From positions 1 through 24,845 of the IMG/VR virus record IMGVR_UViG_3300010155_004099: a DNA stretch of 24,845 nt, one strand, 5' to 3'. Source of the stretch: a virus. Made by a program: the position numbers and the translations under genes. Under the pieces are notes generated by a model. It saw only the letters and a list, made by a program, of their open reading frames with translations, ran no database searches and was not told where the DNA came from. This document shows positions 2,480-23,496 of this stretch, piece by piece. The stretch's first letter is position 1. Every line of letters begins with the position of its first letter.

Positions 2480-2629
2480 TTATTTTTTTCTTTCAGCATC
2501 TATATGCCTAATATTTGCAGTCTTTAATCTTATTTGTCCTAGCTTTTTCTCATCCCACAATAATATCATATCTCTTAGACATCTATGGGCATAAGAAATA
2601 AGGTCTTTAATTTCATCACTTTTCATCAT
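2480..2629 (-). CDS. 49-residue protein of unknown function
   Basis: ATG 2629 lies within the last codons of the GT4 gene (which ends at 2616), with AAGGTG four bases upstream. The product starts MMKSDEIKDLISYAHRCLRD and looks fully helical, with alternating charges. Overlap with the glycosyltransferase gene places it in the same operon. No family is recognised. Confidence 0.5.
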   Translation of the reverse strand: MMKSDEIKDLISYAHRCLRDMILLWDEKKLGQIRLKTANIRHIDAERKK

Positions 2630-3728
2630 TCAACACCTTCATTAGTTTTTGGGCAGAGATATCCCAGGTCCATTGTTTTGTATCTTCTAATGCTTGAATT
2701 CCTTTTCTTCTTACATCTTCTTGGTTCTCAAAGCAATATCTTAATGCTTTTCTTATTTCATCAATATCAGGCTTTCTCCACTTAATTCCTTCATACATTA
2801 CATCATGGGTTACTTCAAACATTTCCCCTTTCTTCAAAAGCCAACCATTATCCTCAGTAACATAATCAGATTGTCCTCCAAAATCACTTTGAAGAGTAGG
2901 TAAGCCACAACCCATAGCTTCTAGCCCACCTAAATTAAAGCCATCAGCTAATTGAGTACAAACAAACACATCTCCTCTACAGTATAATTCATCTCTGATT
3001 TCATCAAGTGATACTTGGTCTTTAGTTATTTCCAGTCTTGAAGGGTTTTTGTTCTCAATCTTTAAACCTAGCACTTCTTTCTCAAAGTCCATATTAGGGG
3101 CGTAAGTGCTGTTAATCTTTATTTTTAACTTCACTGCCTCTTGGTCATTGAACTCCTCTCCAAAGGCTTTAATTAAGTAACCAATGCCTCCTCTGTCTAA
3201 CCATCCCCCTCTCCACCCTTTGTTTGCTATAAAAGTAAAAGGCCTTTTGTCTTTTGCAGTTTCAGCAGGGTAAAATATCTCAGGGTTAATACCATGGTGA
3301 ATTAAATGAATTTTTTTAGTGTCTTTTTTTAATTCACAATCTACATTAGCTATAGTTTCAAAAATAGCTGATTTGGTATGCATAGATGGCACTAATATTC
3401 CATCAGCAATATCTAATAACTTAGCCCAATAGTTAGGAATTTTATAACCTTCCCAAACACAGAACCCATAAAACTTTTTAGCATTCCAGGAGTTCTTAAT
3501 TACATTCCACATAGTAGGTAAATTAATACAAATATGAACATCAAAGTTTTCTTCAGTGCTTTGAATCATTTTATTCTCTGCATCATTAGCTTTGATTTGC
3601 CAGTTACCGTTTAAAGGGATATCTAGCCTAATCTCAGGATTAATTTTATATAAAGCATTAACTAACCCTCTGCAATGATTATCATATCCGGTCTCTCCAA
3701 ATATTGTTCCTGAAAATAGTATCTTCAT
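2616..3728 (-). CDS. GT4-family glycosyltransferase
   Basis: At 370 residues this is typical for a GT-B fold enzyme, which transfers a sugar from a nucleotide donor with retention. The N-terminal Rossmann half begins MKILFSGTIFGETGYDNHCRG; the hinge-proximal HHGINPEIFYP is at about 144-154. The donor-site acidic pair is D262 and E270 in DGFNLGGLEAMGCGLP, a D-X7-E version of the usual E-X7-E, followed by the GT4 SDFGGQSDYV loop. There is no signal peptide or membrane span, so it is cytoplasmic or peripheral. Its ATG overlaps the stop of the GT2 gene upstream (ATGA). It is the last glycosyltransferase of the cassette. The substrate cannot be read from sequence. Confidence 0.88.
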   Translation of the reverse strand: MKILFSGTIFGETGYDNHCRGLVNALYKINPEIRLDIPLNGNWQIKANDAENKMIQSTEENFDVHICINLPTMWNVIKNSWNAKKFYGFCVWEGYKIPNYWAKLLDIADGILVPSMHTKSAIFETIANVDCELKKDTKKIHLIHHGINPEIFYPAETAKDKRPFTFIANKGWRGGWLDRGGIGYLIKAFGEEFNDQEAVKLKIKINSTYAPNMDFEKEVLGLKIENKNPSRLEITKDQVSLDEIRDELYCRGDVFVCTQLADGFNLGGLEAMGCGLPTLQSDFGGQSDYVTEDNGWLLKKGEMFEVTHDVMYEGIKWRKPDIDEIRKALRYCFENQEDVRRKGIQALEDTKQWTWDISAQKLMKVLNDEK

Positions 3729-4576
3729 TGTGCCACCTCATCTTTCCACTTTTGAATGAAGTCTCCTTTCATTTCAAATTGTCCTGCTGTCCAATCTTTT
3801 AAGATGCCTTCATTGAAAGCTATTAATTGATTTTGGTCAGAGAACCTTTCTCCACCACTAGGAGTAAGTAAGTGATACACAATAGCACCAGTATGAACAC
3901 CTAGTTTAAATCCATTTTGTAAACATTTAAAACTAAATATTTGCTCTTCCCTATATCCATGATGGCTTAACCTTGATTTATAGTCAACCTTTTCGTGAAT
4001 CTCTCGTTTGTAAAGTGCTGTGCTTCTAAAATGAGGAGTAGGAATTAACTCACTATCCTCATAGCAATACCCACAATCATCTCCATTCTTAAGGATATTT
4101 CCTTCTTTATCAAGTATCACATCATTAATGAAAGGCTTAACAAACCTATTTTCTCTAATAATTTCTTGGTTCATAATAGGGGGGGTAAGTCCTGAAACCA
4201 AATCATACCCATCATTTATTCCTGCCAGAAGTTTCTCAAGATAGTCTGGCTCCAGGATAATGTCGTCGTCTAATCTACACAGTAAAGGATTGTTATTAGC
4301 CGCAAGAACCCAATCACACATTGCCTGTCTTACTTTGCTAACTCCTAACATAAACTGATTTCTTCTCATAAATACTTTATGCCCTTCCATCTTTAGTCTA
4401 GCAATTAAGCATTGTAAAAAATGATATTGATTCAAAGGAGACCCTGAACAGTCATCCATTATAAAAATATCAAATTTCTGATAAGTTTGAGTCCTAAGAC
4501 TTTGTAGCAATAATCCAAGTTCAGATGGCCGTTCTCTAGTTGGAACCATTATTGATATTCTTTGATTATTATTCAT
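3725..4576 (-). CDS. GT2-family glycosyltransferase
   Basis: This 283-residue protein starts ISIMVPTRERPSELGLLLQS (from residue 7), the standard opening of GT-A fold GT2 enzymes, which invert configuration using a metal-bound nucleotide sugar. The metal-binding acidic cluster is LDDD at 102-105, after LLCR. Later a REEQIFSFKCLQNG segment stands where the family has its ED base motif, and GVHTGAIVYHL follows. ATG 4576 has GAGGTG seven bases upstream and overlaps the stop of the preceding gene (ATGA). It is soluble, with no membrane anchor. Donor and acceptor are unknown. Confidence 0.85.
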   Translation of the reverse strand: MNNNQRISIMVPTRERPSELGLLLQSLRTQTYQKFDIFIMDDCSGSPLNQYHFLQCLIARLKMEGHKVFMRRNQFMLGVSKVRQAMCDWVLAANNNPLLCRLDDDIILEPDYLEKLLAGINDGYDLVSGLTPPIMNQEIIRENRFVKPFINDVILDKEGNILKNGDDCGYCYEDSELIPTPHFRSTALYKREIHEKVDYKSRLSHHGYREEQIFSFKCLQNGFKLGVHTGAIVYHLLTPSGGERFSDQNQLIAFNEGILKDWTAGQFEMKGDFIQKWKDEVAQ

Positions 4577-5166
4577 TTAAACACCTCTGCCCACTTAGTA
4601 GGCTGCCATTTTTTCATAAAAAACTCCCTGTTAGCTGATTCATCAATGGATTGCAATTTTTCAGTAGTATATCTACCAATATGACGACACACTTTTTCAT
4701 CTAGTTCTGCAAACCTCATATTTAGTTCTTTCATTCGTACACAGTAATCGACATCTTCCCACTCTCCTAGTTTAAACCCTTCATCCAGTATTCCTATCTT
4801 TCTAATCACATCTGCATTAAACATAATATTCCAAAAAGTTAAGTGTTCTTTGTCTCTTCCACCATACCTTAGAGTTCCCATATCACCAACTGCATCGTAG
4901 CCTTGTTTAATCTTATTCATCAAAGCTTCATTCCATCCTTTTAGTACAACCACATCATCATTTAAGATACTAACGTGAGTAATATCCTCATCAAATTGTG
5001 CAAGTCTCATTCCTTGATTGCATCCATAACTGAAACTAATAAAATCATTCATACCAATTACTACTACATAATCTCCAGTAGTATTTTTGCCAATACTGTC
5101 TAAGCAATTCATTAAGACTTCTCTGTTTTGAGGAACAGTAGGAATACAAATTAAGAGTTTATCCAC
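4573..5166 (-). CDS. Short GT2-like glycosyltransferase, paralog A
   Basis: This 197-residue protein has the GT2 core only: LICIPTVPQNREVLMNCL, an NDD metal motif at 69-71, an FNADVIRKIGILDEGFKLGEW stretch that is typical of the acceptor side, and WEDVDYC at 136-142 as the catalytic-base ED motif. The start is GTG at 5166 with GGTGA six to seven bases upstream; no ATG is available nearby. It overlaps the zinc-ribbon gene by eight bases. It is clearly paralogous to the protein at 5320..5910, with the same NDD position and the same WED-DYC motif, and it lies just after it, so a tandem duplication is likely. Confidence 0.8.
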   Translation of the reverse strand: MDKLLICIPTVPQNREVLMNCLDSIGKNTTGDYVVVIGMNDFISFSYGCNQGMRLAQFDEDITHVSILNDDVVVLKGWNEALMNKIKQGYDAVGDMGTLRYGGRDKEHLTFWNIMFNADVIRKIGILDEGFKLGEWEDVDYCVRMKELNMRFAELDEKVCRHIGRYTTEKLQSIDESANREFFMKKWQPTKWAEVFK

Positions 5167-5323
5167 TTCTTCTCACCCCTATTACACTTTGACAAGTCAA
5201 ACATTTCTCGCTACCATTCTTTTCAATTCTTCCTGCTTGTACTCCTCCTCCTCCAAATCCCTGAGCTTTGAAACCTATCTTAGTATCTCCACATCTGGGG
5301 CAAGTTCCATTAAATTTTTTCAT
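5159..5323 (-). CDS. 54-residue zinc-ribbon micro-protein
   Basis: CPRC at residues 8-11 and CLTC at 41-44 make a clear four-Cys zinc ribbon around a Gly-rich loop (QGFGGGGVQAG). ATG 5323 overlaps the stop of the GT2 gene upstream (ATGA), and its own stop overlaps the GTG of the next GT2 gene by eight bases, so three genes are locked together. It sits exactly between the two paralogous glycosyltransferases. It may be an adaptor or RNA/DNA binder, but its function is unknown. A second zinc ribbon (7755..7862) has the same genomic arrangement. Confidence 0.65.
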   Translation of the reverse strand: MKKFNGTCPRCGDTKIGFKAQGFGGGGVQAGRIEKNGSEKCLTCQSVIGVRRSG

Positions 5324-5910
5324 ACGTAAATCTCACTTATCTTTCCCCACTTTTTTATAAAGTAATCTTTATTTGCTTGTTTTTGTTCTTTGCTCATTTT
5401 ACACATTGTATGACTTCCTTTGTGTCTGCAATAAGCCCTTTCAAGCTGACACATCTTTCCCAAGCCTAAGTTCTTGGCCCTAATACAATAATCAATGTCT
5501 TCCCATTCTCCAAACTCTATTCCTTCGTCTAATAATCCTACTATTCTAACAGTAATAGCAGGGAACATAACAATACACATAGCCATATGCTCACTAGGCC
5601 TTCCTGGTCTTCTATGCATTCCGTTATCTCCAATTATATCGTAGCCTTCATCTAGTTTTTCTTTGTATGCTTCATACCATCCAGGTAACATTTCGATATC
5701 ATCATTAATCATTAGAACGTGTTCTACTTCTTTATTGTTAATAGCATACTTTAGTCCTTGATTGCAACCATAAGGACTACCTATGAAATTGTTTTTACCA
5801 ATTACAATATTAAAATCTTCTTTTGTGGTTTTAAAAATACTTTTAATGCACTTTTGAAGTACCTCCTCATTTCCTGGTACTGTTGGGATAATTATTAATA
5901 GTTTAGTCAT
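5320..5910 (-). CDS. Short GT2-like glycosyltransferase, paralog B
   Basis: This 196-residue protein opens LLIIIPTVPGNEEVLQKCIK, has NDD at 69-71, and carries GEWEDIDYC near 134-142, all shared in position with the paralog at 4573..5166. A short HRRPGRPSEH loop replaces the RYGGRDKEH of the paralog, so donor or acceptor choice may differ. The protein is about 60-100 residues shorter than usual GT2 enzymes. ATG 5910 overlaps the preceding stop (ATGA); there is no strong ribosome site, so coupling is likely. It ends with ATGA overlap into the zinc-ribbon gene. Confidence 0.8.
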   Translation of the reverse strand: MTKLLIIIPTVPGNEEVLQKCIKSIFKTTKEDFNIVIGKNNFIGSPYGCNQGLKYAINNKEVEHVLMINDDIEMLPGWYEAYKEKLDEGYDIIGDNGMHRRPGRPSEHMAMCIVMFPAITVRIVGLLDEGIEFGEWEDIDYCIRAKNLGLGKMCQLERAYCRHKGSHTMCKMSKEQKQANKDYFIKKWGKISEIYV

Positions 5911-6473
5911 TTTTTGTTAAACTTGTTTTTTAATTCGAAAGCAAGTTCCCTCCCATATTTTTTAGAAAATATTCCAAAGTTTTGTCCCATTCCAGCCCGA
6001 GTCAGAGTATATTGAGAAGCCCAAACTAATTCATCATAAGAATCCATCCCATAAGAATTTAGAATACAATGAATGAGTTTACTCATACATAAGTTATATT
6101 TTCCCTTTTTCTGTTTTTTTGTATAATTTCCAAACAATGTTACTTTTGTTAATGCTTCTTCAAAAACTTCAAATGCTTTTTTCCCAAAATCTTTTATATC
6201 TTGTTTATAAGATTTGCTATTTTCATAATTCCATATTAAAGTTACCCTTATTGGTTTTTCATTCTCTGTAATATTATCTAACTTAAGATAATTATATAGT
6301 TTTTTTACTTCTTCTTTGGAAGTTTTCATTCTTATCGTTAAAAATGTTGGTTCCAATAACCAATAAAAGATTTTGAATTTTGCACGTTGTAGTCTAAGTT
6401 GTTTTAATAAATTATCTATATTCCATTTCTGTATTTTAGCAGACCCATAAATTCTTATTTCTGTTTTCTTCAT
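5907..6473 (-). CDS. Protein of unknown function in the glycosylation operon
   Basis: This 188-residue basic protein is locked by ATGA overlaps between two glycosyltransferase genes. It opens MKKTEIRIYGSAKIQKWNID, has a predicted strand pair around FKIFYWLLEPTFLTIRM, and ends with a conserved-looking aromatic/Gly segment (WASQYTLTRAGMGQNFGIFS) near 150-172. No catalytic motif, signal peptide or membrane span is visible. I do not recognise a family. The position suggests a role in the same glycan pathway, perhaps as an acceptor-binding partner, but that is inference only. Confidence 0.6.
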   Translation of the reverse strand: MKKTEIRIYGSAKIQKWNIDNLLKQLRLQRAKFKIFYWLLEPTFLTIRMKTSKEEVKKLYNYLKLDNITENEKPIRVTLIWNYENSKSYKQDIKDFGKKAFEVFEEALTKVTLFGNYTKKQKKGKYNLCMSKLIHCILNSYGMDSYDELVWASQYTLTRAGMGQNFGIFSKKYGRELAFELKNKFNKK

Positions 6474-7762
6474 TTCAAGACTTCCATAATTTTCATACCT
6501 ATAATAATCTGACTTTGATATTGAAAGTTATCAGGAGTTGGAACAACTTTAAAACCTGCTTTTTTAATTTGACTTTCCCACCAAGACTTTTTCTTTTTAG
6601 TCAAGTGAGTAGCATCTTGTTCAAGATTAGGGTCTCCAATTACTGGTACACTGATTAATAAATAATGCTTTGTTACTTTATATAATTCTTTTAATGTTTC
6701 AATAACATCTTCTTCCTTTAAATGCTCAAGAATATCATACGCAATAGATAAATCAAATTGATTTTTCTCAAGTGCAGTTAATCCATCAGGAACTTCAGCC
6801 GCCCATTTAGTTAAATTCTTATGAGCATAAGGGCTTTTATTAATCACATATTGACTCTGGTCGAAAGCCATTACCTCTATTCCGAACTCAGCTAATACAA
6901 ATTCTCGGTGAGCTGGCCCACAACCTATGCTTAATACTTTCTTTGGTTTAAAAAAATGCTTCCAATGAACAGCATCATGATAATGCTTACCTTCTAAGTC
7001 GAGTCTTTTATTAAAGTAGAAAACATCCTGTAAGGGTTCTGGCAAAAATTCTTCTTTGATTGACATAGGCAACTCGTTCACATCAAATTTTCTTACAGGA
7101 TATACACCTACTATATGTGATAGGTACCATTTATGTAAGTATTCTGGGGTATGCATATTGCTTTTTTGCAAATGCTCTTCATATCTTTTCTTTAAATACC
7201 ATAGATTCCTTGCATATCCTAAGTGCCAAATTACACATCCAAATAGATTAATTACCAAAGCATCTCCTTTTGTTGATAATACTGAATGTTCAACTTCAGG
7301 ATAATAAAATTCTTTATTAATTTTAAATAATCTTGATGGTACAAAATGCTCTTTCTTTGAAGCATCTTCAACATTAACAAAATTCATTAAATGACGCATT
7401 TTCACATTTGCAATATCAACTTTATCTTTGTTTAATGATTTGAGAATATCTCTTACTTTTTTAATATCATCAATGACTTCATCAGGGTCAAGAACTAAAC
7501 ACCAATCACCATCAAACTTTTCTTGAACATATTGTAAATAAATATTCCTTGCTTTGCCATTTGCTTTTAAATCTTCTTTATCATATTTATTGGGTATAAT
7601 TTGAATCTTGTCAGGATATTGTCTTAATAATTCAAGGGTCCCATCTTTACTTCCACCATCTACGAATACAATATGGTCAGCTACATCGATTACACTCTTT
7701 AAACTAAGACCTAGTTCTTTCTCACAATCTTGCCCTATGTACGCAATAATCAGCTTAGTCAA
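6470..7762 (-). CDS. GT2 glycosyltransferase fused to SAM methyltransferase
   Basis: The protein has 430 residues from a TTG start. Residues about 1-215 are a GT2 domain: MTKLIIAYIGQDCE, VDGGSKDGT (34-42) and a DPDE metal motif at 92-95. Residues about 260-430 are a class I methyltransferase: VLSIGCGPAHREF (276-288, the SAM-binding Gly loop), an acidic VMAFD at the end of strand 2, FDLSIAYDILEHL and YLLISVP. TTG 7762 has GGGTG eight bases upstream and overlaps the zinc-ribbon gene by eight bases, matching the arrangement at 5159-5166. A GTG at 7786 would add eight residues. The fusion suggests sugar addition followed by methylation of the glycan. Confidence 0.82.
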   Translation of the reverse strand: MTKLIIAYIGQDCEKELGLSLKSVIDVADHIVFVDGGSKDGTLELLRQYPDKIQIIPNKYDKEDLKANGKARNIYLQYVQEKFDGDWCLVLDPDEVIDDIKKVRDILKSLNKDKVDIANVKMRHLMNFVNVEDASKKEHFVPSRLFKINKEFYYPEVEHSVLSTKGDALVINLFGCVIWHLGYARNLWYLKKRYEEHLQKSNMHTPEYLHKWYLSHIVGVYPVRKFDVNELPMSIKEEFLPEPLQDVFYFNKRLDLEGKHYHDAVHWKHFFKPKKVLSIGCGPAHREFVLAEFGIEVMAFDQSQYVINKSPYAHKNLTKWAAEVPDGLTALEKNQFDLSIAYDILEHLKEEDVIETLKELYKVTKHYLLISVPVIGDPNLEQDATHLTKKKKSWWESQIKKAGFKVVPTPDNFQYQSQIIIGMKIMEVLK

Positions 7763-7862
7763 CTTTACTGCACCCACATCTTTCACAAAAATAGGGTTTT
7801 CCTACAACTTCAAAGCAATGTTTCCACCTACATCCAAAAAAGAAACAAACTAAATTAATCAT
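7755..7862 (-). CDS. 35-residue zinc-ribbon micro-protein
   Basis: The product starts MINLVCFFFGCRWKHC and ends with CERCGCSKVD, giving paired Cys/His groups at both ends. This closely recalls the tiny phage zinc proteins that start with a hydrophobic strand and G-x-x-W/H (DUF1660 style); that likeness is from memory. ATG 7862 overlaps the stop of the GT4 gene (ATGA), and its stop overlaps the following GT2 start by eight bases. Like the 5159..5323 gene it is a micro-gene linking two glycosyltransferases. Confidence 0.6.
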   Translation of the reverse strand: MINLVCFFFGCRWKHCFEVVGKPYFCERCGCSKVD

Positions 7863-9127
7863 TGTGACATCTCCTCAAACAACTTATTCCATTTAGCAAC
7901 AGGATATTTCCAATCATAAATCCCTAAAGCCTTAGTTCTACCAGCAACAGATAACTGTTTTCTAAGCTTATCGCTATTGTATAACTTAGTCAATTGTTCT
8001 GCTGCGTGTTCTGCATCACACAGCCCTCTTTCGACATTCCAACTACCTGTGAAAGTCCCATTATCAATCAACAAATCAATTTCTTTCATACTCTTCCCTT
8101 TGTCTAATAAAAGTTCTGTCATACTCATTTCTTCAGTTCCAACTAACTTAGCAGGTAGTCCTGTTTTTCCATCTTCAACTAATAGTTCAGGAGTAGTCGT
8201 ATAGTCAGTAACCACTTGGGGAATCCCACAACTCATAGCTTCAACAATAGGTACACCGAAACCTTCTCCAGATGTAGTTAATAAAAACACATCCATTAAG
8301 TTATATACCGCATTCATTTGCTTTAAATCAAATCCTTGAAAGCAGGTCATTCCACTAAACATCACTCTATTCTCAATCCCATATCTTTTAATCAACTCTG
8401 TAATTCTAAATACAGAAGCAGGGTCATTAGGGTCAGTATGCAAAAACAATATAGTATCAGGCTTATCTACACAGAACTTAGCAAAGGTTTTAATCAACCT
8501 ATCCATAGTCTTTCTGCCTTGATTTCTGCAAACAGAACCTACTACAAATTTATCTTGAAGCCCTCTAGCTTTTTTAAGAAGTTGTCTATCAGTAGAACTC
8601 AAAGGAGTAAATATTGAAGTATCAACTCCGTGCTGAATATAATCAACCTTAGCTCCATAGTAATCCTTTACTTGTCGCTGTCCAAACTTAGCCATAGCTA
8701 CAAACTTATCAAATTTCTGTAATAGTTGCTCACAGCCAACTGGAAGCCCTGCACCACCATCTGAGGGAAAGTAGAACAAACTCTTAGCAGGAGAAAAATC
8801 AACATTTAATATCCAAGGGTATGTCATAAAAGTATCTAACAATATTCCAAATATCTTAGGCTTTAATTGTTTGATTTTAAAAGGCAGAATGTCTTGACTG
8901 TGAGGTTTTAATCCAGTACCGCAAATGGTAAAGTTAGGGTTAAGTACAGTTCCTTCAGAGGTTGTAGCTCCAGGAGCTATATCTTGTCCAAAATAATTAT
9001 GAGCCAGAATATTTTTGTTTAAAGAATTACTACACCGATTCATTAAGTCTCTGCTTTGCGAAGCGAATCCAGTTACTGTAAAAGGACTATCGCTTAACCA
9101 TAGCATATTTGCTTTTTCGTTGTTCAT
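7859..9127 (-). CDS. GT4-family glycosyltransferase
   Basis: This 422-residue GT-B enzyme opens ANMLWLSDSPFTVTGFASQS, an N-terminal Gly-rich loop after the first strand. QHGVDTSIFTPL (about 165-176) begins the second Rossmann half, VVGSVCRNQGRKTMDRLIK is the typical donor-domain start, and the canonical E-X7-E pair is E288 and E296 in GEGFGVPIVEAMSCG. ATG 9127 has AGGTGA three to four bases upstream. It is the first glycosyltransferase of the six-gene cassette and overlaps the small gene at 9087..9314. It is cytoplasmic, with no membrane span. The sugar and the acceptor are unknown. Confidence 0.9.
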   Translation of the reverse strand: MNNEKANMLWLSDSPFTVTGFASQSRDLMNRCSNSLNKNILAHNYFGQDIAPGATTSEGTVLNPNFTICGTGLKPHSQDILPFKIKQLKPKIFGILLDTFMTYPWILNVDFSPAKSLFYFPSDGGAGLPVGCEQLLQKFDKFVAMAKFGQRQVKDYYGAKVDYIQHGVDTSIFTPLSSTDRQLLKKARGLQDKFVVGSVCRNQGRKTMDRLIKTFAKFCVDKPDTILFLHTDPNDPASVFRITELIKRYGIENRVMFSGMTCFQGFDLKQMNAVYNLMDVFLLTTSGEGFGVPIVEAMSCGIPQVVTDYTTTPELLVEDGKTGLPAKLVGTEEMSMTELLLDKGKSMKEIDLLIDNGTFTGSWNVERGLCDAEHAAEQLTKLYNSDKLRKQLSVAGRTKALGIYDWKYPVAKWNKLFEEMSQ

Positions 9128-9365: not shown

Positions 9366-10136
9366 TTACACACCAACAGTCTTATTCCATAATACTATTT
9401 GAAGTCTAGGACTGTACTTTAATTTCTCAGAAGTACAAATTTCACTCACAGCTTCACTTATCCTATCGTGTTCCTCTCTATTGTTACACGCAGGCATTAG
9501 AAATATGTTTTTATCATTCTTCATAAATCGAAGGGTTAAATATTCTTTTTTCAGATTCTGCACATCTCCAATATCATAAATCACAAACTTAAAGCAATAG
9601 GATTTACTCTTAATGAACTTCAACACATCAGGTTTAAATCTTTTAGTCTTACTCATACCACTATTTTCTAGCTTCGGAGAACAATTATACCAATCCACAA
9701 ATCTATCAAAATTCTCAGTAGGCATAATAGTCCCATTCGTTTCTACTTCAATATACGCATTACAATCTGTTTTAACCCAATCAAGAAATGTAAGCAGTTC
9801 TTCATTATTTTGATATAGTAAAGGTTCTCCTCCAGTGATTACTAAATGAGCCCCATTCTTAATAGCTTTAAGATACCCAGAACTAAGAAACATCTTATGC
9901 AAAGAAACTGCATTATATTCATCACCCTGAAGCCATTTAGCAATCGTATCACAAGTCCAAGTAGCTTTTTTAGATTGTTGAGCATCAATTTCCTTTTGAT
10001 TAGTTTTGTCTTTTACCTTTTTTAAAGAAGGAGCTCCACACAAAAGGTTACAACCAGTTAATCTTAAAAATACAGCAGGAGTTCCCATATGCGTTCCTTC
10101 TCCTTGTATTGAAAGAAAATGTTCAGCTACTTTCAT
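9366..10136 (-). CDS. queE: 7-carboxy-7-deazaguanine synthase (radical SAM)
   Basis: This 256-residue enzyme makes 7-carboxy-7-deazaguanine from carboxytetrahydropterin on the way to preQ0. Visible: VAEHFLSIQGEGTHMGTPAVF, the family signature; the cluster Cys residues as GCNLLC (C29, C33) and TWTCDT (C62), so the third Cys is separated by an insert of 28 residues in place of the usual two; HLVITGGEPLLY for SAM binding; and NCSPKLENSGMS. The ATG at 10136 is preferred because the protein family starts at this point; an upstream ATG at 10166 would add ten non-homologous residues. It overlaps queD by 14 bases. In viruses this pathway usually feeds modification of genomic DNA. Confidence 0.9.
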   Translation of the reverse strand: MKVAEHFLSIQGEGTHMGTPAVFLRLTGCNLLCGAPSLKKVKDKTNQKEIDAQQSKKATWTCDTIAKWLQGDEYNAVSLHKMFLSSGYLKAIKNGAHLVITGGEPLLYQNNEELLTFLDWVKTDCNAYIEVETNGTIMPTENFDRFVDWYNCSPKLENSGMSKTKRFKPDVLKFIKSKSYCFKFVIYDIGDVQNLKKEYLTLRFMKNDKNIFLMPACNNREEHDRISEAVSEICTSEKLKYSPRLQIVLWNKTVGV

Positions 10137-10554
10137 TATAATCCGCCCAACAATTAGGAGTTTCAAACACTCTCACATTGCTAATAGTTATTCCTTTTGG
10201 GAAACAATCTTTCAATTGACCAAAGCACCACTTAGCAATATTCTCAGCGGTAGGTATAAACCCGACGATAACTACATTCCAGTTCGTACCTCGTAACCAT
10301 CGCATTTCTAAGTCTTGAGAATATATCATAAAGCCGTGGTCTAATGGGTCGTGGACTTTCTCAGTCATAAACTTCTTAATATCTCCAAAGTCAAACACCA
10401 TTCCCTCACTACTATCATTTGCTTCTTCAATTAAAGGACCAGATAAAGTTAGTTCTAACCTATATCTATGCCCGTGAGGATTACGACATTTACTATTATG
10501 GTTAGGAATCCTATGTCCCATATCCCATTCTATTATTTTTGTCACAGATATCAT
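10123..10554 (-). CDS. queD: 6-carboxy-5,6,7,8-tetrahydropterin synthase
   Basis: In this 143-residue enzyme of the QueD/PTPS fold, the zinc ligands are H14 (MGHRIP) and H27, H29 (NPHGHRY), the catalytic Cys is C23 in SKCRN, DH at 72-73 and E131 (VFETPN) complete the active site, and PTAENIAKW holds the pterin-binding Glu (E104). It converts dihydroneopterin triphosphate to carboxytetrahydropterin, the substrate of QueE, whose gene follows with a 14-base overlap. Its ATG overlaps the stop of the gene upstream. QueC, FolE and a DNA-inserting transglycosylase are not in this window, so the host or the rest of the virus must supply them. Confidence 0.92.
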   Translation of the reverse strand: MISVTKIIEWDMGHRIPNHNSKCRNPHGHRYRLELTLSGPLIEEANDSSEGMVFDFGDIKKFMTEKVHDPLDHGFMIYSQDLEMRWLRGTNWNVVIVGFIPTAENIAKWCFGQLKDCFPKGITISNVRVFETPNCWADYNESS

Positions 10555-13532: not shown

Positions 13533-15016
13533 CGTACAAACACTCCCATTGTATGAACTCTTGGATTTGGATTATCACTATCACTTTGTAGATTGATTTT
13601 AATTCTTAATGATTTTCCAGATGTTGCAAATTCAATCTCTTCTGCTTCTATGATTGTTTGGAAATTAACACCATTATTATTACTGACTTCAAAGGATGAT
13701 ATGCCTAAATTGTCCCCATCAAATCTTAATTCAGCGTGGGTAATATTCTCAGCGTAACTTCTAATAGCCGAGGTTGCATTACCGATTGTTCCACCCTTTA
13801 ATTGCAAATTGCTATCACTCTCTTCAGTTCCTACATGGCTCATAATAGAAGGATTCTCATCGAATGTAATAACATAACTATTTCTCATTCCAAATTGATT
13901 CTTAGCTATCAATTGGTTTGTTAAATTCTTATTTAAAATACTCAATTGACTACCTATACTCTTAGGATATTTTGCTATTATGGCATCAGTTAAAAATCCA
14001 GAAGAGGAGGAAATAGTATGAGTAAACCTAAGCACTTGATATCTATCAGTCAATTCAGAATAAGGTTCAGACATCCTTATCATATCTCCAGGATTTAATG
14101 TGGGTAAGCCTAAACCAGATACATCACCCTCTCTCCTTTGAGTTTTTGATACTGTTAATCTAGCATTTCCTCTGCTGTTTAAATCATTAAAATTCAAAAT
14201 AGAAGTGTCTTGTGTTAATAAATCTGTTTGACCAAATTGCCCAATGCTACCATTATCTTTAAAGGTTTGCAAGAATTGAATGTCTGCACTCCTTTCAGCA
14301 TTACCTCCAAAGAAGATAATATTATTTTTAATATCTTTATAATCAATGCCAACACTACAGTTAATCATATTCACTCCATGAACCATTCTTTCAGTATCAT
14401 TAAGAACAGTCTCTGTAGGAAAATGTTGTAACACTCCGTCAGTATCTACATAAAAATCATGAGATATTTGATTTAATACATCCTGTATAGCTTGAATTAA
14501 TGAAACATCTCTAAAGGATATGTTAGCAATAGTGGCTCCAGTAACAATTTTAGTATAAGTAAAGGTGCTAGCATTGTTAGTTACTAGAGAATCAATAATG
14601 TCTTCAGGTGAAGCATTTTCAAAAGAGGCATTAACAACTCTTTTAATCATATCCACTCCTTTGTCTCTACCTGTTAATTTTAAAGTCCTACCTTGCTCAC
14701 CAAATTGAAAATTCTTTTCTTCAACAAATCCACTAAAGATTTTCTGAGTAGCTGAGCCAAAGTCTGCAAAGATATCTATTGCCTCATTACCTTGAAATTT
14801 CTCTACCCATTGACCATTATGATTGTTTAAAGATAACTCAAAAGTTCCTACTAATTCATTAATGCCCCTAGTTACTGAACAACTAATCATATCGAATTCA
14901 ATATCTTCAGTAGAACTATCAAGATAAGTAACAGTGATTTTCCATTTAGGGGCATATACAGTAGGAGGTATCCATATAAAAGCTCCAAATCCTCTTGAAG
15001 TTCTTCGTGCCGGCAT
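13529..15016 (-). CDS. Baseplate hub / tail protein (gpD/gp44-like)
   Basis: This 495-residue protein is beta-rich. Residues about 25-120 (a strand series with ISCSVTRGINELVGTFELSL and IDIFADFGSATQKIFSGFVE) and the following GRDKGVDMIKR resemble the first domain of phage late-control D or gp44 hub proteins. LPTLNPGDMIRMSEPYSELT, followed by YQVLRFTHTIS, matches the membrane-proximal hub barrel. The last 120 residues look like a separate beta-sandwich. The start codon overlaps the preceding stop by one base (TAATG). Assignment is by pattern and by order after the tape measure and Dit-like genes. Confidence 0.7.
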   Translation of the reverse strand: MPARRTSRGFGAFIWIPPTVYAPKWKITVTYLDSSTEDIEFDMISCSVTRGINELVGTFELSLNNHNGQWVEKFQGNEAIDIFADFGSATQKIFSGFVEEKNFQFGEQGRTLKLTGRDKGVDMIKRVVNASFENASPEDIIDSLVTNNASTFTYTKIVTGATIANISFRDVSLIQAIQDVLNQISHDFYVDTDGVLQHFPTETVLNDTERMVHGVNMINCSVGIDYKDIKNNIIFFGGNAERSADIQFLQTFKDNGSIGQFGQTDLLTQDTSILNFNDLNSRGNARLTVSKTQRREGDVSGLGLPTLNPGDMIRMSEPYSELTDRYQVLRFTHTISSSSGFLTDAIIAKYPKSIGSQLSILNKNLTNQLIAKNQFGMRNSYVITFDENPSIMSHVGTEESDSNLQLKGGTIGNATSAIRSYAENITHAELRFDGDNLGISSFEVSNNNGVNFQTIIEAEEIEFATSGKSLRIKINLQSDSDNPNPRVHTMGVFVR

Positions 15017-18000
15017 TATCCTATCACCACTATATTTGTATCATTCCAGTCAGAAGTCTTAACACAATCCCTACAAATGCTTCCTAGACGTATTTGAAAC
15101 TCTGCATCAGAGGTTAATCTTCCAGTACAATTCAAATCAACTTCATTCCATAATCCTATTCTCCCATCATTACTAAGATTCGCAACAGGAGTAGTGTAAT
15201 TAAAGATTGCACTCATATTATATCTTGAATGATTACTTCCAAAAGTAAAATTCATACAGGTGTCAATAGTTTGATTCATTTGAATAGTCATATTAAAAGG
15301 GTCACTCATAGCATTACCTGTTATATTAATAATTGGAATTCTTATAGTCTGTCCAAAAGGAGTTACATTCTTTTGTTCGTATGAAGTAAATAACCATTCA
15401 AAGTATGTTAAAGGAGGTTTCATTAATGCATCAAATCTACTATGTTTCACTACCATACTAAATTCAGTACTGTTATCTAAAAATGAAGAGTTACCTGTTG
15501 CATCTGAAGTAGCAGTAATAGTTAGGTTGCTATCTCCTCTAAAGAATATTTTTAAATCATCCATCTTCAAGATGCCATCATTGAAAGTAGTATCTATGGT
15601 AATGTTATCTAAAGTTTGAGAAGAGGTAAAATTAACATCTAAAGGATTAATGCTTTGATTGATATTCAAAGAGCTTATTTGTATTGTTCCAGCTTTATCA
15701 GTAATGATATCTATAGGAATTAAACAAGTAAGAGTTTGATTGCAATTGCTAACAATATAATCAGCTAATGGTGAAGTGTTCAAAAAGACCGATTGTGGAC
15801 TGTTGGATAAATTTAGCACTTGACTAAAGTTAAACTCATAGTTTGCATCTCCACCTACATCTACTGTAATGTTTTCAGCTGATGAAGGGATAACTTCTGT
15901 TTGAATTCTATATACAATTGGTGTAATGTTTCTATCTGTATTGCTCATATTTACTCTCCACATAAGAGTATTCCCTACACTATCAAATGCAGTTCTTCCA
16001 CCAACACTATCAACAGCTCTAGTCCAAACTGAACCATTAGTATTGCTGACATAATATTCAACAAATGTTCCGGAGGGTACATCATCAAATGCTGTAAGCT
16101 GAACTCCTAAGATATTACTTGGGAAACTGTTTAAGACATTTGAAGTAACAGTTCCATTAGGGAAGTATTCAGTACCATTGTTAGTTCTATTGAGGTAAAT
16201 TCCCCCATAGTTTATCCTATTTAATTTAATGCTTCCAGTAGAAGTAATAGGTTCTCCCCCACCAAAGTCAAAAGCTACTAAATTTAAGTATGTTTGAAAT
16301 GTCCAATTCTTAGAGTTATCTAGTGCACTTGTTGAAATTGTACTATCAGGAACTCCATCAACAAATACATCCCAGGTGTTAGAAGTCTTTTGCCTTACTA
16401 CTGTAATATTTTCAATAGCATCATTAGAACCTCCACTCCCACTTGTAGAACGAGCATAGATATCTATGGCATTTGTTCCATCACTAATTCTTCCGGTAGC
16501 CGAAGCAGATAATGAACAACCCACATCGCAAATAGTAGTTAATGATACTTGCCAATCCCATTCAAACCAAGTTATATTATTGATACTATCAAAGGGTAAA
16601 GTATTTCTTTCAAGAGTTGCAGCTCCAGAAAGACTTTGTTGATGGGAAACAATAGCACCATAAGTTTGCCATCCATCATCTACTTGGTCACAGGTAGGTC
16701 CGGTATAAGTTGCATCACCAACACAGCTTCCATCTCTATTTGCAGCTATATCATTTGTAAAGGTTTGAGTCCATTCATCATCCAATGTAGCATTGACTTC
16801 AAAGTTTTCAAGAATACCATTAGGAGTTGAAGCATTGTATAATCCAGATAAGTTAATATTGGAAGTAGTTGTATTAGTGTTATTGAATACTTCAGTATAG
16901 CTAAATTCATTTCCTAAATCTGCATCGAATCCAGATATCAAAAATTGCCCTGTAATATTAGCCCTATTAAGGGTTGAAACATTAACATTGATAGTCTTTA
17001 ATCCTTTCTCTCCGAAAGTAAGATTCTTAATTATATTAGTTCCATCAAATAAGAACTCATTTTGATTAATGACATCCCCTATCAATCTTCCTGGAAGTAT
17101 GATTTCATCATATCCATTGGCACCAAAGTCAAGCCTTACTCCCTTGGGATAATTACCTGAACCAGTAAGATTAATATTCATTGCATAAATATCAGTCCTA
17201 TTATCAGTATTGTTTATCCATACCAATTCAGAAGATGATAAAGTAATATCAGTAGGGTTAGTAAAATTCTTTACTACTGTATTATTAATCACATAATCAA
17301 AAGCAAGGAATGTTGAAGTATTGCAAATAGCAGTTCCTCCGAAAGCAGTATCTTCTATAGTAAGACATATTTGACAACTTGCACAACTCTGATTCACTCT
17401 TATTTCAGCAGTAGTTTCATATTCAAATTTAGCTGAAGACACTCTATCATTAATAGATAAGTTTATTTCAACAATTAAAGGAGATGAAGCTGTTAATAAG
17501 AATTGAGTAAAGTTACCTGTAAAGTTTTGGGAAACAGTATTGTTGATAGTATAATTGTGGGCACCTATTGGTAAATCAAATCCTATGTTTCCATTCTCAG
17601 TAGCATTAACATTAGTCCCGTTTCTAAACAATGAACCTGTATTCTCTCCTGCACAGCTAGAATTTATAAAGAACTTAGATACATTGGCTTGATTACCAGT
17701 TGAATTGAAGTAACAGAATGAACCACTAGGATTGACTGTAATAAAAGAATACCCAGTTTGATTTACTTTGCCCACTCCATCAATAGCAAATAATCTGAAT
17801 TTATAATCTCCTGCTCCAAAGTTAGTATATTGGCAAGAGTAATTTCCTGCATTAGTATTCACAGCTGATTTATTTGCCAACACCCTAGTAAAATTAGATT
17901 CACAGTTCACAGTACTTATTGCAACATCATCTGTCACATTGGTAAAGAAATCAATATTAACAGTTGTATCATTATAAGTAAGTGGACTTTGAGGTATTGA

Positions 18001-19101
18001 AAAGTTATCTCCAACTGAAGGTACATTCACATCAGGAGCAACAATGGTTATAGAAGCATTAACCCAAGAAGTTGCATTTTCTTCTCCATCATCTACTATT
18101 ATCATAGCAATCCAAACATCTCCTGCAGTTAAGTTCCCACTCGCTAATGTATCAACTAAACTGAATACATTGTCTCCAATAGCTGTAACAGTTGCTAGGG
18201 TAAAGTTCTCCACATCATCTTTAAACCATCTAATATGAGCTTGCATAGCCTCTCCGTTAGGGTCTGTAGCATCTACCCACGAAGTAACATCTTCATCAGA
18301 ACTGTTATCTCCACCTACCTCAGTAGTATTTAATAATGTAGCACTTATTGTTGGGGGTATATTTCCTTGAAATGGCACTAAGAGTCCCTCTCCTAAATTA
18401 TATGCAGCTACTGCTTCAAAAGGTTGTAAACTTTTATTCCACACCCTGATAATATCTGCATCTCCATCTATATATCCTCCATTCTGTCCATTCTGCCCAA
18501 AGCTCATTTCAGCATTAGTATTTCCGAAATCGCCATCAAAAGCATCTGTCCAACAAATAGATACTCCATCACGAAAGAACTCTATGGAATTATTTGAAGC
18601 AAGAATTGCAACAATCACATGGGTCCAAGTATTGCTGTTAAATGCAAAAGTAGGACAACTTTGGGGAGTTTTCTCACTCCACATATACTGCTGCATATCA
18701 GAAGGAGTATTCCACTGAAGCATATAATCTCCCTCACTTTCAGCAGGGTCACGCTTCTCTAAAAAAGTTTGACCACCTGTAGTATTATCAACAAGAATCC
18801 ATTGCTCTAAACTTCCAGCATTAGTATTAGGCATATCATATAAGATGTTATCATCAGCTTCCATCCAATCTGTGGCTCCTGGAAACGTACACTTATCACT
18901 ATCCCCTACTCCCCCAGGAGCAGTTGAAGCAGTATTCTGAACAGTCATATTAGAAAGATTCATAGTATCTACTACTTCACTACCTACTAAAGTATCACAA
19001 TTCCATTCACTCACTACGAATTTAACATCAGTTCCATCAAGAGCAAATGCAGAAGAAACCATCACCAATACTAACAAAAGATAGAATAAAATAAATTTCA
19101 T
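15016..19101 (-). CDS. Giant LamG/beta-sandwich protein with signal peptide, N-glycosylation-rich
   Basis: This is a 1361-residue protein. Residues 1-20 (MKFILFYLLLVLVMVSSAFA) are a textbook Sec signal peptide. Residues about 60-240 form a LamG/concanavalin-like domain (WILVDNTTGGQTFLEKRD, then NTWTHVIVAIL and IEFFRDGVSICW), a carbohydrate-binding fold. The rest is repeated Ig-like beta-sandwich with Cys pairs. By hand count there are more than 70 N-X-S/T sequons, about one per 18 residues, as in heavily N-glycosylated archaeal surface proteins. It lies within the tail operon and overlaps both neighbours, so it is likely the receptor-binding or decorating protein, yet export is odd for a tail assembled in the cytoplasm. 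Confidence 0.75.
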   Translation of the reverse strand: MKFILFYLLLVLVMVSSAFALDGTDVKFVVSEWNCDTLVGSEVVDTMNLSNMTVQNTASTAPGGVGDSDKCTFPGATDWMEADDNILYDMPNTNAGSLEQWILVDNTTGGQTFLEKRDPAESEGDYMLQWNTPSDMQQYMWSEKTPQSCPTFAFNSNTWTHVIVAILASNNSIEFFRDGVSICWTDAFDGDFGNTNAEMSFGQNGQNGGYIDGDADIIRVWNKSLQPFEAVAAYNLGEGLLVPFQGNIPPTISATLLNTTEVGGDNSSDEDVTSWVDATDPNGEAMQAHIRWFKDDVENFTLATVTAIGDNVFSLVDTLASGNLTAGDVWIAMIIVDDGEENATSWVNASITIVAPDVNVPSVGDNFSIPQSPLTYNDTTVNIDFFTNVTDDVAISTVNCESNFTRVLANKSAVNTNAGNYSCQYTNFGAGDYKFRLFAIDGVGKVNQTGYSFITVNPSGSFCYFNSTGNQANVSKFFINSSCAGENTGSLFRNGTNVNATENGNIGFDLPIGAHNYTINNTVSQNFTGNFTQFLLTASSPLIVEINLSINDRVSSAKFEYETTAEIRVNQSCASCQICLTIEDTAFGGTAICNTSTFLAFDYVINNTVVKNFTNPTDITLSSSELVWINNTDNRTDIYAMNINLTGSGNYPKGVRLDFGANGYDEIILPGRLIGDVINQNEFLFDGTNIIKNLTFGEKGLKTINVNVSTLNRANITGQFLISGFDADLGNEFSYTEVFNNTNTTTSNINLSGLYNASTPNGILENFEVNATLDDEWTQTFTNDIAANRDGSCVGDATYTGPTCDQVDDGWQTYGAIVSHQQSLSGAATLERNTLPFDSINNITWFEWDWQVSLTTICDVGCSLSASATGRISDGTNAIDIYARSTSGSGGSNDAIENITVVRQKTSNTWDVFVDGVPDSTISTSALDNSKNWTFQTYLNLVAFDFGGGEPITSTGSIKLNRINYGGIYLNRTNNGTEYFPNGTVTSNVLNSFPSNILGVQLTAFDDVPSGTFVEYYVSNTNGSVWTRAVDSVGGRTAFDSVGNTLMWRVNMSNTDRNITPIVYRIQTEVIPSSAENITVDVGGDANYEFNFSQVLNLSNSPQSVFLNTSPLADYIVSNCNQTLTCLIPIDIITDKAGTIQISSLNINQSINPLDVNFTSSQTLDNITIDTTFNDGILKMDDLKIFFRGDSNLTITATSDATGNSSFLDNSTEFSMVVKHSRFDALMKPPLTYFEWLFTSYEQKNVTPFGQTIRIPIINITGNAMSDPFNMTIQMNQTIDTCMNFTFGSNHSRYNMSAIFNYTTPVANLSNDGRIGLWNEVDLNCTGRLTSDAEFQIRLGSICRDCVKTSDWNDTNIVVIG

Positions 19102-20565: not shown

Positions 20566-21942
20566 TTAAGTGCTTATAGATGTTACCTCTCTATTGTTTG
20601 CTTCTCCTACTGCTGATGCTATTTGCCTACCATCCAACTCTACTCTTGTTTCAACTAAAATTGGTTGACCAAAATTGCTTGGGAAAGTTCTTATTCCTGT
20701 ATCTGGGTCAAATTGATTGAATGTACTAAGCTTTCCTCCTTTATCTCCTCTAGCTATGCCCACATCACCAATTCCACCTTCTGTTAATATATCATTAAAT
20801 GCTTTTGCTGCACCTGTTGCTCTTTCCAAAGCTTTTGTTCTTTCATTTAAAGCTTCATTGCCTTCAATCATTGATACTGTATTTGCATTAGTTGATGTAG
20901 TTAAACTGTCTGTTTCTTCTGTCACCATCCCATATTGAACAGCCAATTCAAAAGCTGCTTGGTGATATTGTATTGCTGTGATTCTGCCATTAGCCATAGC
21001 CATTTGTAATTTTTGTAATTCAGCACCAAATTCTGCACCTTTATCTTTTGTTAATCCCATAATGCTTGCAAAATTCCCTAATTCATTAATGCTTGCACTA
21101 AGAATAACACCACCAATTTTAGCAATTGCTCCTAAGAAACCAACAATCTCTTCTTTGTTTTCTGTAATTGTTGATATGATTGCAGTTAAAGCTTCATTAA
21201 CAGTAGGCAATAATTCTTTACCTATATCTCTTGCAATTAATTCTAATTCATCTTGTAAGTTTGAAAACTGTCCTATTGCTGTTTTGGATTTCTTTTGCAT
21301 TAAATTAAAGAATCTTCCTCCTTCACTTGATAGGTTTTCAAGTGCTTGCCGAACTTCTTCAAATCCTATCTTTCCTGCTTCTGAAAGTTTAGATATTTCA
21401 GCAGTACCAACACCTAATAACTTAGATAACTCTTCACGTAAATTAACACCTGCATTGGTAAACTGTCTAATCTCTTCACCACTAAGCTTTCCTTTTGCTC
21501 GTACATCACCTAAAGCTTTTGCTAATTGTGATATAGGAACATTAGTACCAGCTGCAATATTCCCTAAAGAATTCAAAGCAGGCAAAATCTCTTCTGCGGT
21601 TAATCCAACAGCCAATAATTGAGTTGAAGCTTTCTCAATACCTTGTAGAGTAAAAGGTGTCTTCTTTGCAAAGTTTGCCAAATCATTTAATAATTTAGTA
21701 GCTGTTGCAGCACTACCAAGCATAGTTGTAAAAGCAACTGTAGTTGCTTCAAACTCAGCAGCTCTTTTAATAGAAACAGCAAAAATAGAAGCAACACCAA
21801 CAGCTGCTATAGCAGCAACTTTTGTTAGCATCTTAATAGACTTGTTGGCTTTAGCAAAAGTGCCACTAAATTTATCAACTCCTGATATGACAACTTGTAC
21901 TGATGCTCCTCCCAGTGCTCCTGCAAAAAATGAACTTACCAT
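20566..21942 (-). CDS. Tail tape measure protein
   Basis: In this 458-residue protein, residues about 60-245 match the phage tape measure N-terminal domain: AAEFEATTVAFTTMLGSA, FAKKTPFTLQGIEKASTQLL, GNIAAGTNVPISQLAKALGD, GKLSGEEIRQFTNAGVNLRE and IGFEEVRQALENLSSEGGRF. An Ala-rich hydrophobic helix (about 40-62) precedes it and a long helical stretch with a second hydrophobic part follows. The protein sets tail length; at the usual 0.15 nm per residue 458 residues imply a short tail of around 70 nm. ATG 21942 has GAGGAG four bases upstream and overlaps the chaperone frameshift stop (TAATG). Confidence 0.9.
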   Translation of the reverse strand: MVSSFFAGALGGASVQVVISGVDKFSGTFAKANKSIKMLTKVAAIAAVGVASIFAVSIKRAAEFEATTVAFTTMLGSAATATKLLNDLANFAKKTPFTLQGIEKASTQLLAVGLTAEEILPALNSLGNIAAGTNVPISQLAKALGDVRAKGKLSGEEIRQFTNAGVNLREELSKLLGVGTAEISKLSEAGKIGFEEVRQALENLSSEGGRFFNLMQKKSKTAIGQFSNLQDELELIARDIGKELLPTVNEALTAIISTITENKEEIVGFLGAIAKIGGVILSASINELGNFASIMGLTKDKGAEFGAELQKLQMAMANGRITAIQYHQAAFELAVQYGMVTEETDSLTTSTNANTVSMIEGNEALNERTKALERATGAAKAFNDILTEGGIGDVGIARGDKGGKLSTFNQFDPDTGIRTFPSNFGQPILVETRVELDGRQIASAVGEANNREVTSIST

Positions 21943-22456
21943 TATCTCCTCTTTTTACTTTGTCTTTTCGCTGTATGTGCTTTCTCACGTTCAACCATAT
22001 TAAATGCATCAATCAAAACATTGATTTCACCATATGTTAATTTGTTGATTGTAAAAAAGTTATATCCTTTTTCGTGAAGGAAGATTATTAACCTTTTGTA
22101 CCTTGCTTCACTTCCAAGTTTTTTTTTAACTCGTCCTCAGTGATATTCCCTTTATTATCTTCTTCTTTCAAACCACTATATTCTAAAATCTTTAATACGA
22201 TAGCTTCAACAAAATAAGGTTTCATATTATCAATTTCTTCTTCAGTAAACTTTGGCTGAACACACCCATATAAAATTACCTTTTTGTCCCTATCCTCTTC
22301 AATTAAGTTAGGCTGATACACTTCTGCACTTTGCCCACGAGTTAAAGGAACAATTTTAACTTCTGGTGAATTCTCTAAGTTTAACTGAACAACTTTAGGA
22401 ATTAAATTTTCACCATTCCTTTCAAAAAATGTTTTGTCTTTATCTAACATTACCAT
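21942..22456 (-). CDS. Tail assembly chaperone, long (-1 frameshift) form, gpGT-like
   Basis: The short chaperone ORF (22088..22456) is followed, in the -1 frame and without any usable start codon, by a frame ending at TAA 21942. A slippery A AAA AAC (minus strand, 22118-22124) lies in the overlap in the correct register. Slippage there gives a product of 171 residues whose new C-terminus reads LGSEARYKRLIIFLHEKGYN and continues YGEINVLIDAFNMVE. This is exactly the G/GT arrangement, between tail tube and tape measure genes, of many long-tailed phages. The long form typically binds the tape measure, the short form the tube protein. Confidence 0.8.
22088..22456 (-). CDS. Tail assembly chaperone, short form (gpG-like)
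   Basis: This 122-residue protein starts MVMLDKDKTFFERNGENLIP, with mixed strands (KVVQLNLEN, VKIVPLTRG) and a helical C-terminal half (EEEIDNMKPYFVEAIVLKIL), then a charged tail. ATG 22456 has a near-perfect GGAGGTGAT four bases upstream, the best ribosome site in the module. It is placed between the tail tube gene (stop 22498, with a terminator) and the tape measure gene, as expected for chaperone G. It has no sequence motif to identify it, so the call rests on position and on the frameshift. Confidence 0.75.
   Translation of the reverse strand: MVMLDKDKTFFERNGENLIPKVVQLNLENSPEVKIVPLTRGQSAEVYQPNLIEEDRDKKVILYGCVQPKFTEEEIDNMKPYFVEAIVLKILEYSGLKEEDNKGNITEDELKKNLEVKQGTKG
22118..22124 (-). promoter_or_regulatory. 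-1 programmed frameshift site A AAA AAC
   Basis: The minus strand reads GAG TTA AAA AAA AAC TTG in the chaperone frame, placing the canonical X XXY YYZ heptamer on codon boundaries within a run of nine A. Six bases after it GTGAAG (22106-22111) can pair with CTTCAC (22074-22079), a possible stimulatory stem with a long loop. Confidence 0.75.
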
Positions 22457-22484
22457 CTAAATCACCTCCCAATGAAAATAAAAA

Positions 22485-22512
22485 TATAACATGGAAATTA
22501 CTCCATGTTATA
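22485..22512 (-). terminator. Strong terminator after the tail tube gene
   Basis: TATAACATGG (22485-22494) and CCATGTTATA (22503-22512) are perfect 10-bp arms with an 8-base loop that includes the stop codon. On the minus strand they run into a TTTTTATTTT tract. It would keep most transcripts to the abundant tail tube protein and let fewer reach the chaperone and tape measure genes. Confidence 0.7.
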
Positions 22513-23496
22513 AAGTTGAATTGAGTCGTTTGCTAATGCTGATACAGTTGTCGGCTGTACAGTTAATGTTGCTTCACTAACTCCTTCCATTGGAGTTGAA
22601 TTCTCAAAGTCAATCATTTTGCAACCACTCATGCTAATTAAAACATCTTTGCTTCCTACAGCTGAAAATTGGTTAATGTCCAATATCATATTGAAGGTTG
22701 AACCACCTTGAAAGTATTGGTCATATAACTCTTTGCTCTTTTCAGACGTCAAATCAATTGTTGCTGTTAGCTCGTAATCCCTGTTTAAAGGTAGTGGAAC
22801 TGATGCAACTCTGCTTCCATTAACATAATGTGGAGATTCCATATTATTATTAAGTGTAAAGCTAAAGTCTTTCGTAGTTTGCAAAACAAGTCCAGAAGCA
22901 AGGTGTAATTTAGTATCACTCCATAAATATGGTCGTGATGTATCTGCAGTAATTGAACTTTTTGTTCCACTGCTAAATGCTGATACTTGTGCATTGTAAT
23001 CCAAGTCAACATTAACAGGTTCACCTTGTGTAGCTCTGATAGTAATTGAATTAACAACTGCACCTTTAATTGTTCTTACAAAATTCTCTCCATCTCCGGC
23101 AGTTTGTACTTTCTCATCTACAATTGTAAAACTAGCAAATGGATTTAATGTTCCTGATGTAAAAGCATATCCATCATCTGAATTTACTTCACTCATAGTA
23201 TGTGTATAAGGTTGTGGCGAACCACCATCAACATTAGAACCTAATGCAAATGCTAAAAATTTCCAATCTTGTGGAAAGTAATTAATTGTTCCTGTGACAT
23301 CTCTTGGACCATCTATAAATTGGTCAACATTTCTCGTCGCTGTACCTACAATCCTAGTCGGGATTATATTTTCACTTTCGTCTATGGTATGGTCTTGTAC
23401 CATTCCAACCCAGTGAAATAACCCAGAAGGTTCTGCATAAGTACCACTCTCATATCTAAAACTTACTTGACTCTCATCATTCATATATCTTGGCAT
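22498..23496 (-). CDS. Major tail tube protein
   Basis: This 332-residue protein starts at ATG 23496, which has GGAGG six bases upstream; an in-frame extension to 23538 has no ribosome site. It is beta-rich: QVSFRYESGTYAEPSGLFHW, VRTIKGAVVNSITIRATQGE, VNVDLDYNAQVS, FSFTLNNNMESPHYVNGSRV and YELTATIDLTSEKSKELYDQ. These match the insert-tolerant beta-barrel of archaeal and phage tail tubes, with a typical loop after the NNNMES stretch. Position (after the completion protein, before the chaperone/tape measure) and its own strong terminator fit the most abundant tail protein. No sheath gene is seen, so the tail is probably non-contractile. Confidence 0.8.
   Translation of the reverse strand: MPRYMNDESQVSFRYESGTYAEPSGLFHWVGMVQDHTIDESENIIPTRIVGTATRNVDQFIDGPRDVTGTINYFPQDWKFLAFALGSNVDGGSPQPYTHTMSEVNSDDGYAFTSGTLNPFASFTIVDEKVQTAGDGENFVRTIKGAVVNSITIRATQGEPVNVDLDYNAQVSAFSSGTKSSITADTSRPYLWSDTKLHLASGLVLQTTKDFSFTLNNNMESPHYVNGSRVASVPLPLNRDYELTATIDLTSEKSKELYDQYFQGGSTFNMILDINQFSAVGSKDVLISMSGCKMIDFENSTPMEGVSEATLTVQPTTVSALANDSIQLYNME

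Follow-up and report, generated by a model that had tools for sequence, protein, structure and literature searches.

Does the small gene between the tail tube and tape measure genes of this virus encode a tail assembly chaperone of the lambda G/GT type, with a longer form made by programmed -1 ribosomal frameshifting, and is the virus one of archaea? The stretch of DNA analyzed here, termed the window, is an IMG/VR fragment of 24.8 kb (24,845 nucleotides) that stems from a metagenome contig. All features of the locus lie on the minus strand in the order tube-G-T-tape measure. The tail tube protein (22498..23496; PF18906 Phage_tube_2, E 3.9e-15), which has HCTV-2 gp39 as its closest named relative, is encoded upstream of the chaperone gene and the tape measure protein (20566..21942; PF20155 TMP_3, E 3.8e-26; phrog_9959) downstream of it. 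Between them resides G, the putative short form of the chaperone, a 0-frame gene of 122 codons (22088..22456) that is preceded by a strong Shine-Dalgarno sequence (GGGAGGTGAT, 22461..22470) and whose product is 25-37% identical to that of its relatives.

A preliminary description of this DNA had placed an in-register A_AAA_AAC within a 122-codon gene between tube and tape measure, and this was confirmed base for base. The G codons at the site read GAG TTA AAA AAA AAC TTG, such that the heptamer at 22124-22118 (22118..22124) is in 0-frame register. With nine A's in the run, a second, overlapping heptamer, A_AAA_AAA, one codon earlier (22121..22127), shares this register. The -1 frame extension, T (21942..22117), begins with CTT as the first codon after a shift at A_AAA_AAC and translates as (K)KLGSEARYKRLIIFLHEKGYNFFTINKLTYGEINVLIDAFNMVEREKAHTAKRQSKKRR up to the TAA at 21944-21942, which amounts to an extension of about 58 residues. 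The last A of this stop codon is the A of the tape measure ATG. The open -1 frame and the one-base overlap had both been described before and were borne out by reading the window, as was the statement that T has no start of its own until late: the earliest candidates, a TTG and an ATG located 74 and 92 nt past the G stop, respectively, both fall within the conserved T core.

G itself matched no chaperone family in Pfam or PHROG and no PDB sequence, and it could not be aligned by sequence with G from HCTV-2. An absent sequence match is not disqualifying, as chaperone families are very divergent. The AF2 model of G (pLDDT 84.5) has chaperones as its three best PDB matches, namely two chains of the HK97 chaperone 2ob9 and YqbN (3klu), all of them weak (E ~0.5, TM 0.39-0.46, 13-17% identity). 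Matches of the model in BFVD include several annotated chaperones with E-values of 0.005-0.01, one of them from Halobacterium phage ChaoS9. The main grounds for identifying G as a chaperone are its place in the gene order and the frameshift arrangement.

Is this arrangement shared by related viruses? With G as the query, no relatives were found in viral contigs or phages. Relatives were gathered by alignment of the tail tube, which yielded 54, 80 and 80 IMG/VR loci in three overlapping scans. After removal of near-identical T sequences, 75 IMG/VR sequences including the window were retained, 43 in clade I, to which the window belongs, and 32 in its sister clade II; two further sequences, L177 and L191, were read by hand, bringing the number examined to 77. 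The T core reads FLHxxGYxFFxIPKLTxxEIN in clade I and ELAICDYFKWSLxDVxxLT in clade II. In the table of 75 deduplicated sequences, for which a T core had to be recognizable in the -1 frame within 80 codons, T lies without exception in the -1 frame overlapping G, and this frame runs 45-69 codons (median 54) beyond the G stop; the extension in the +1 frame is mostly shorter than 12 codons and reaches 31 at most in an earlier tabulated set. Nine loci lacked a recognizable T core. Seven of these break off too shortly past the tube or, in the case of L079, within an inserted gene, and the remaining two, L177 and L191, had been missed by the T pattern and fit the usual arrangement. Homologs with both frames as separate genes and without a slippery site were not encountered among the 75 sequences and these two. 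T is under purifying selection, with omega values of 0.05-0.28 in closer pairs and a shared motif. An ATG, GTG or TTG ahead of the T core is absent in 49 of 70 loci, the window among them, and only 4 of the 70 offer T an ATG with a Shine-Dalgarno-like sequence. Four loci (L059, L079, L104, L113) at first appeared to be exceptions because other genes follow the tube; in L059, L104 and L113 the usual G/T pair follows downstream of the extra gene, and the L079 sequence is too short to judge. The inserted genes, named by eye, are a membrane-protein-like open reading frame, an HNH-like endonuclease and, twice, a gp10-like tail component.

Of the 75 sequences, 50 carry a canonical heptamer in register, and another 23 carry T_TTT_CNR at a conserved place. 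In clade I, canonical in-register heptamers are present in 41 of 43 sequences, about tenfold more than expected by chance. When only the G/T overlap is considered, 36 of 37 clade I loci carry X_XXY_YYZ in register while 3.2 are expected (nominal P 6.5e-39), and across all loci the numbers are 45 of 66 and 6.1. The chance rate, 0.0066 per codon, was derived from in-frame heptamers that these viruses carry in their tube and tape measure genes; the compared loci are related, such that the P values overstate independence. The heptamers comprise A_AAA followed by AAA, AAG, AAC or AAT, T_TTT followed by TTG or TTA, and A_AAT followed by TTT or TTA, a variety that suggests repeated swapping of one working site for another. 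We also considered the Shine-Dalgarno-like GAGGA (22134..22138), located 9 nt upstream of A_AAA_AAC in the window, as a possible stimulator of frameshifting. Strings of this kind lie upstream of 11 of 41 clade I sites versus 14% of control positions, an enrichment that is at best weak.

In most members of clade II, GAT TTT CNG replaces the canonical heptamer (L022, L033, L036, L037, L048, L050, L058, L060, L073, L074, L085, L098, L108 and others). Such sites, selected on the four T's and the C, number 33, including seven from clade I; the codon preceding TTT is GAT in 27 of them, and the codon following it is CAG in 21, CAA in 5, CCG in 3, CGG in 2 and CCA and CGT in one each. Only about 15% of the glutamine codons used by these viruses are CAG, and the choices made at 17 glutamine sites have a log10 P of -15.7 given codon usage. 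Part of the preference for CAG could reflect the -1 frame, in which its G begins the next codon. That next codon varies (GAA, GGG, GAT, GTT, GCT) and hence the base itself seems to be constrained.

The third element of the locus is a stem downstream of the slippery site. The preliminary description had proposed pairing of 22111-22106 with 22079-22074; this helix exists, and the stem proved to be longer, as it continues past a C-C mismatch with 22104-22100 pairing to 22085-22081. The complete structure (5' arm 22100..22111, 3' arm 22074..22085) comprises 6 bp, one mismatch and 5 bp, i.e. 11 bp in total, and starts 6 nt after the heptamer. Its predicted energy is -9.4 kcal/mol, with z-scores of -1.5 and -2.3 for segments of 60 and 80 nt. 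Across the group, the 65 nt downstream of the site have a mean z of -1.58 compared to -0.27 for control windows in the tube and tape measure genes (P 4e-11); z, calculated from mononucleotide shuffles, averages -1.31 in clade I and -1.98 in clade II and is -2.9 for the window. When each 5' arm was paired either with its own partner or with those of other viruses, the energies were -12.0 versus -7.1 kcal/mol in clade II and -9.2 versus -6.8 kcal/mol in clade I, and none of 20,000 permutations in either clade matched the own-partner pairing. The stem of the window has a swap rank of 0.095. The predicted stem signal is strong for the group; the window's own stem taken alone is only moderately unusual. 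Compensating arms can also be recognized by eye, as in CCAGTTC/GAACTGG, CCAACCG/TGGTTGG, CCTCAAGA/TCTTGAGG and CCAGAGAC/GTCTCTGG. In clade I, the first helix of at least 6 bp mostly starts 6-7 nt after the heptamer; in clade II it mostly starts 2-3 nt past CNG, which corresponds to 5-6 nt when counted from GAT_TTT. The position of the 5' arm is constant and the 3' arm is found at differing places within T, at the codons for NELA, FGW or WSL, distinguishing a set of lineages consisting of L026, L033, L036, L074 and L091 from one with L037, L048 and L108 and another with L050, L060, L073 and L085. Pairing within the stem thus seems to have been rewired from one lineage to another. A search of Rfam returned no family matching the window.

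The register of the heptamer, the open -1 frame, the selection acting on T, the universal -1 arrangement, the enriched slippery sites and the co-varying stems lead us to infer, with high confidence, a lambda G/GT-type tail assembly chaperone expressed via programmed -1 ribosomal frameshifting. The tailed virus that encodes it very probably has an archaeal host. The majority of ribosomes would translate G and terminate at 22088. A minority, carrying two lysyl-tRNAs or a lysyl- and an asparaginyl-tRNA on the run of nine A's, would slip back by one base, accompanied by the 11-bp stem 6 nt downstream, and yield a G-T fusion that terminates at 21942. Should the roles follow those in lambda, coating of the tape measure would fall to G and recruitment of the tube subunit to T. 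For the wider group, we consider it somewhat probable, judging from the comparison of sites, that two interchangeable -1 signals are used at the same place: canonical heptamers, mostly in the clade of the window, and the non-canonical GAT_TTT_CNG with the rare CAG as the preferred last codon and a stem starting 2-3 nt further on.

Other routes to the same arrangement have to be weighed against ribosomal slippage. The RNA polymerase may add or drop A's on the A9 run, with the fusion then arising by ordinary translation, and the nine A's of the window and the runs of nine to ten in many relatives would suit such transcriptional slippage. Some clade I sites, however, consist of runs of six only (TTAAAAAAG, GATTTTTTG) and others are mixed (A_AAT_TTA, A_AAT_TTT), still in ribosomal register; the sister clade uses GAT_TTT_CNG, and a slipping polymerase needs no stem 6 nt downstream, yet the stems co-vary. 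We regard this explanation as very unlikely. Even less probable is that G and T are separate genes, with T produced through re-initiation or translational coupling where G stops. An ATG just past that stop does occur in a few relatives, as a TAATG-type overlap in L002, L033 and L052 and together with a Shine-Dalgarno-like sequence in L029 and L055, but start codons ahead of the T core are missing in the window and in most loci, and relatives that do have the ATG show the conserved slippery sites and stems as well. In L029, L032 and L055, which have an ATG and a Shine-Dalgarno-like sequence just past the G stop, a free T protein might be made besides G-T. That the frame break is merely an assembly or sequencing error in a homopolymer and the true gene has a single frame would be conceivable for one metagenome contig, such runs being error-prone; recurrence of the -1 relation in 75 deduplicated sequences, often at sites that are not homopolymers, refutes this for the group and leaves it a negligible chance for the window.

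Programmed frameshifting at this locus could also be real and the host a bacterium, in which case it would be uninformative about archaeal ribosomes. The GTDB scans with tube and capsid revealed no provirus and hence no host genome; the best-ranked named relatives of the tape measure are from Bacteroides and Riemerella phages, Bacillus phages are among the relatives of the tube, and MCM and archaeal primase are absent from the relatives. On the other hand, ERCC4 is encoded in 6 and PCNA in 4 of 15 long relatives (neither gene is present on the window fragment), and among 14 control genomes both families were positive only in the four archaea. The PCNA of relative G003 has archaeal sliding clamps as its best PDB matches, the phage collection contained no phage with PCNA or ERCC4 similar to those of the relatives, and the best named relative of the tube is haloarchaeal HCTV-2 gp39 (E 1e-13). 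As MCM and archaeal primase are absent, the evidence for an archaeal origin comes from PCNA, ERCC4 and the tube. tRNAs, none in the window and only three in the relatives scanned, were of no use in this respect. The tube and a glycosyltransferase cassette of the window are common to all six long contigs compared and the tape measure to four of them. With relatives that carry archaeal-type PCNA and ERCC4, the hosts are very probably archaea; gene content thus indirectly supports the label of an archaeal virus given in the preliminary description, and we hold an archaeal host for the virus in the window to be highly likely and a bacterial one improbable.

How does the locus compare to known systems? 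It differs from lambda G/GT in its heptamer, which is G_GGA_AAG in lambda, in the lack of sequence similarity and in its very probably archaeal host. Shared with lambda G/GT and the chaperones of other long-tailed phages are the location between tube and tape measure, the -1 direction, the short and extended forms and the lack of a start for T (Xu et al. 2004, via PMC5009743). Earlier work has already put forward -1 frameshifting for chaperones in tailed viruses of archaea (PMC5009743, PMC8211752), and a 2021 review lists a single demonstrated programmed -1 frameshift in archaea plus a few viral cases that have been reported (PMC8211752). The novelty implied in the preliminary description has to be corrected, since, according to these reviews, the gp40/gp41 chaperone of HCTV-2 (Saparoviridae) has a reported -1 shift at the same A_AAA_AAC (Sencilo et al. 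2013, via PMC5009743, PMC8211752). The existing annotation of HCTV-2 joins the chaperone across the frameshift. This archaeal tailed virus, the closest named relative by tube, resembles the window in heptamer and gene order but has a T extension about three times longer and a heptamer that abuts the G stop, and neither G nor T can be aligned between the two. In the haloarchaeal virus Hardycor1, a -1 site, G_GGA_AAT, has been predicted in the chaperone pair HrrHc1_110/115 (PMC7911831); like that of the window it is a predicted site in an archaeal tailed virus, but it concerns a single genome and a different heptamer. We also noted an open -1 frame with G_GAA_AAC TGA in HHTV-2, in which gp47/gp48 are annotated as two genes, and in a relative (L010, ~5466-5478; L064, ~5119-5131), and these viruses may employ frameshifting too.

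The sister-clade site has a counterpart in pea enation mosaic virus, which shifts at G_GAU_UUU (PMC5009743). Both share the GAU_UUU core, and on that register the stem of clade II lies 5-6 nt downstream. Unlike in that virus, A precedes GAT in most cases (21 of 33 sites), TTT is followed almost without exception by CNG or CAA, in the majority by CAG, and the viruses are DNA viruses with presumed archaeal hosts. The sister-clade site and the group-wide covariation of the stems appear to go beyond what we found described. If archaeal ribosomes do read GAT_TTT_CNG, it would represent a distinct class of -1 signal, one that searches for heptamers only would miss, and the stems would provide comparative evidence for archaeal ribosomes responding to downstream mRNA structure. 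With the -1 arrangement, the slippery sites and co-varying stems conserved across some 75 divergent virus lineages, it becomes testable whether the archaeal ribosome shifts at these heptamers and whether downstream stems stimulate it.

Further genes of the window, all on the minus strand, deserve mention. The glycosyltransferase cassette (2616-9127), in which one enzyme is fused to a methyltransferase domain, has four genes in common with all six long relatives compared. Two adjoining, similar short glycosyltransferase-like genes (4573-5166 and 5320-5910) apparently result from a tandem duplication. Genes for a QueE-like radical SAM protein (9366-10166) and a QueD/PTPS-like protein (10123-10554) suggest a 7-deazaguanine pathway, perhaps serving DNA modification. 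The product of the gene at 15016-19101, 1361 residues long, has a signal-like N-terminus, contains a Laminin_G_3 domain and is rich in N-x-S/T sites; it is perhaps a glycosylated surface or tail-tip protein.
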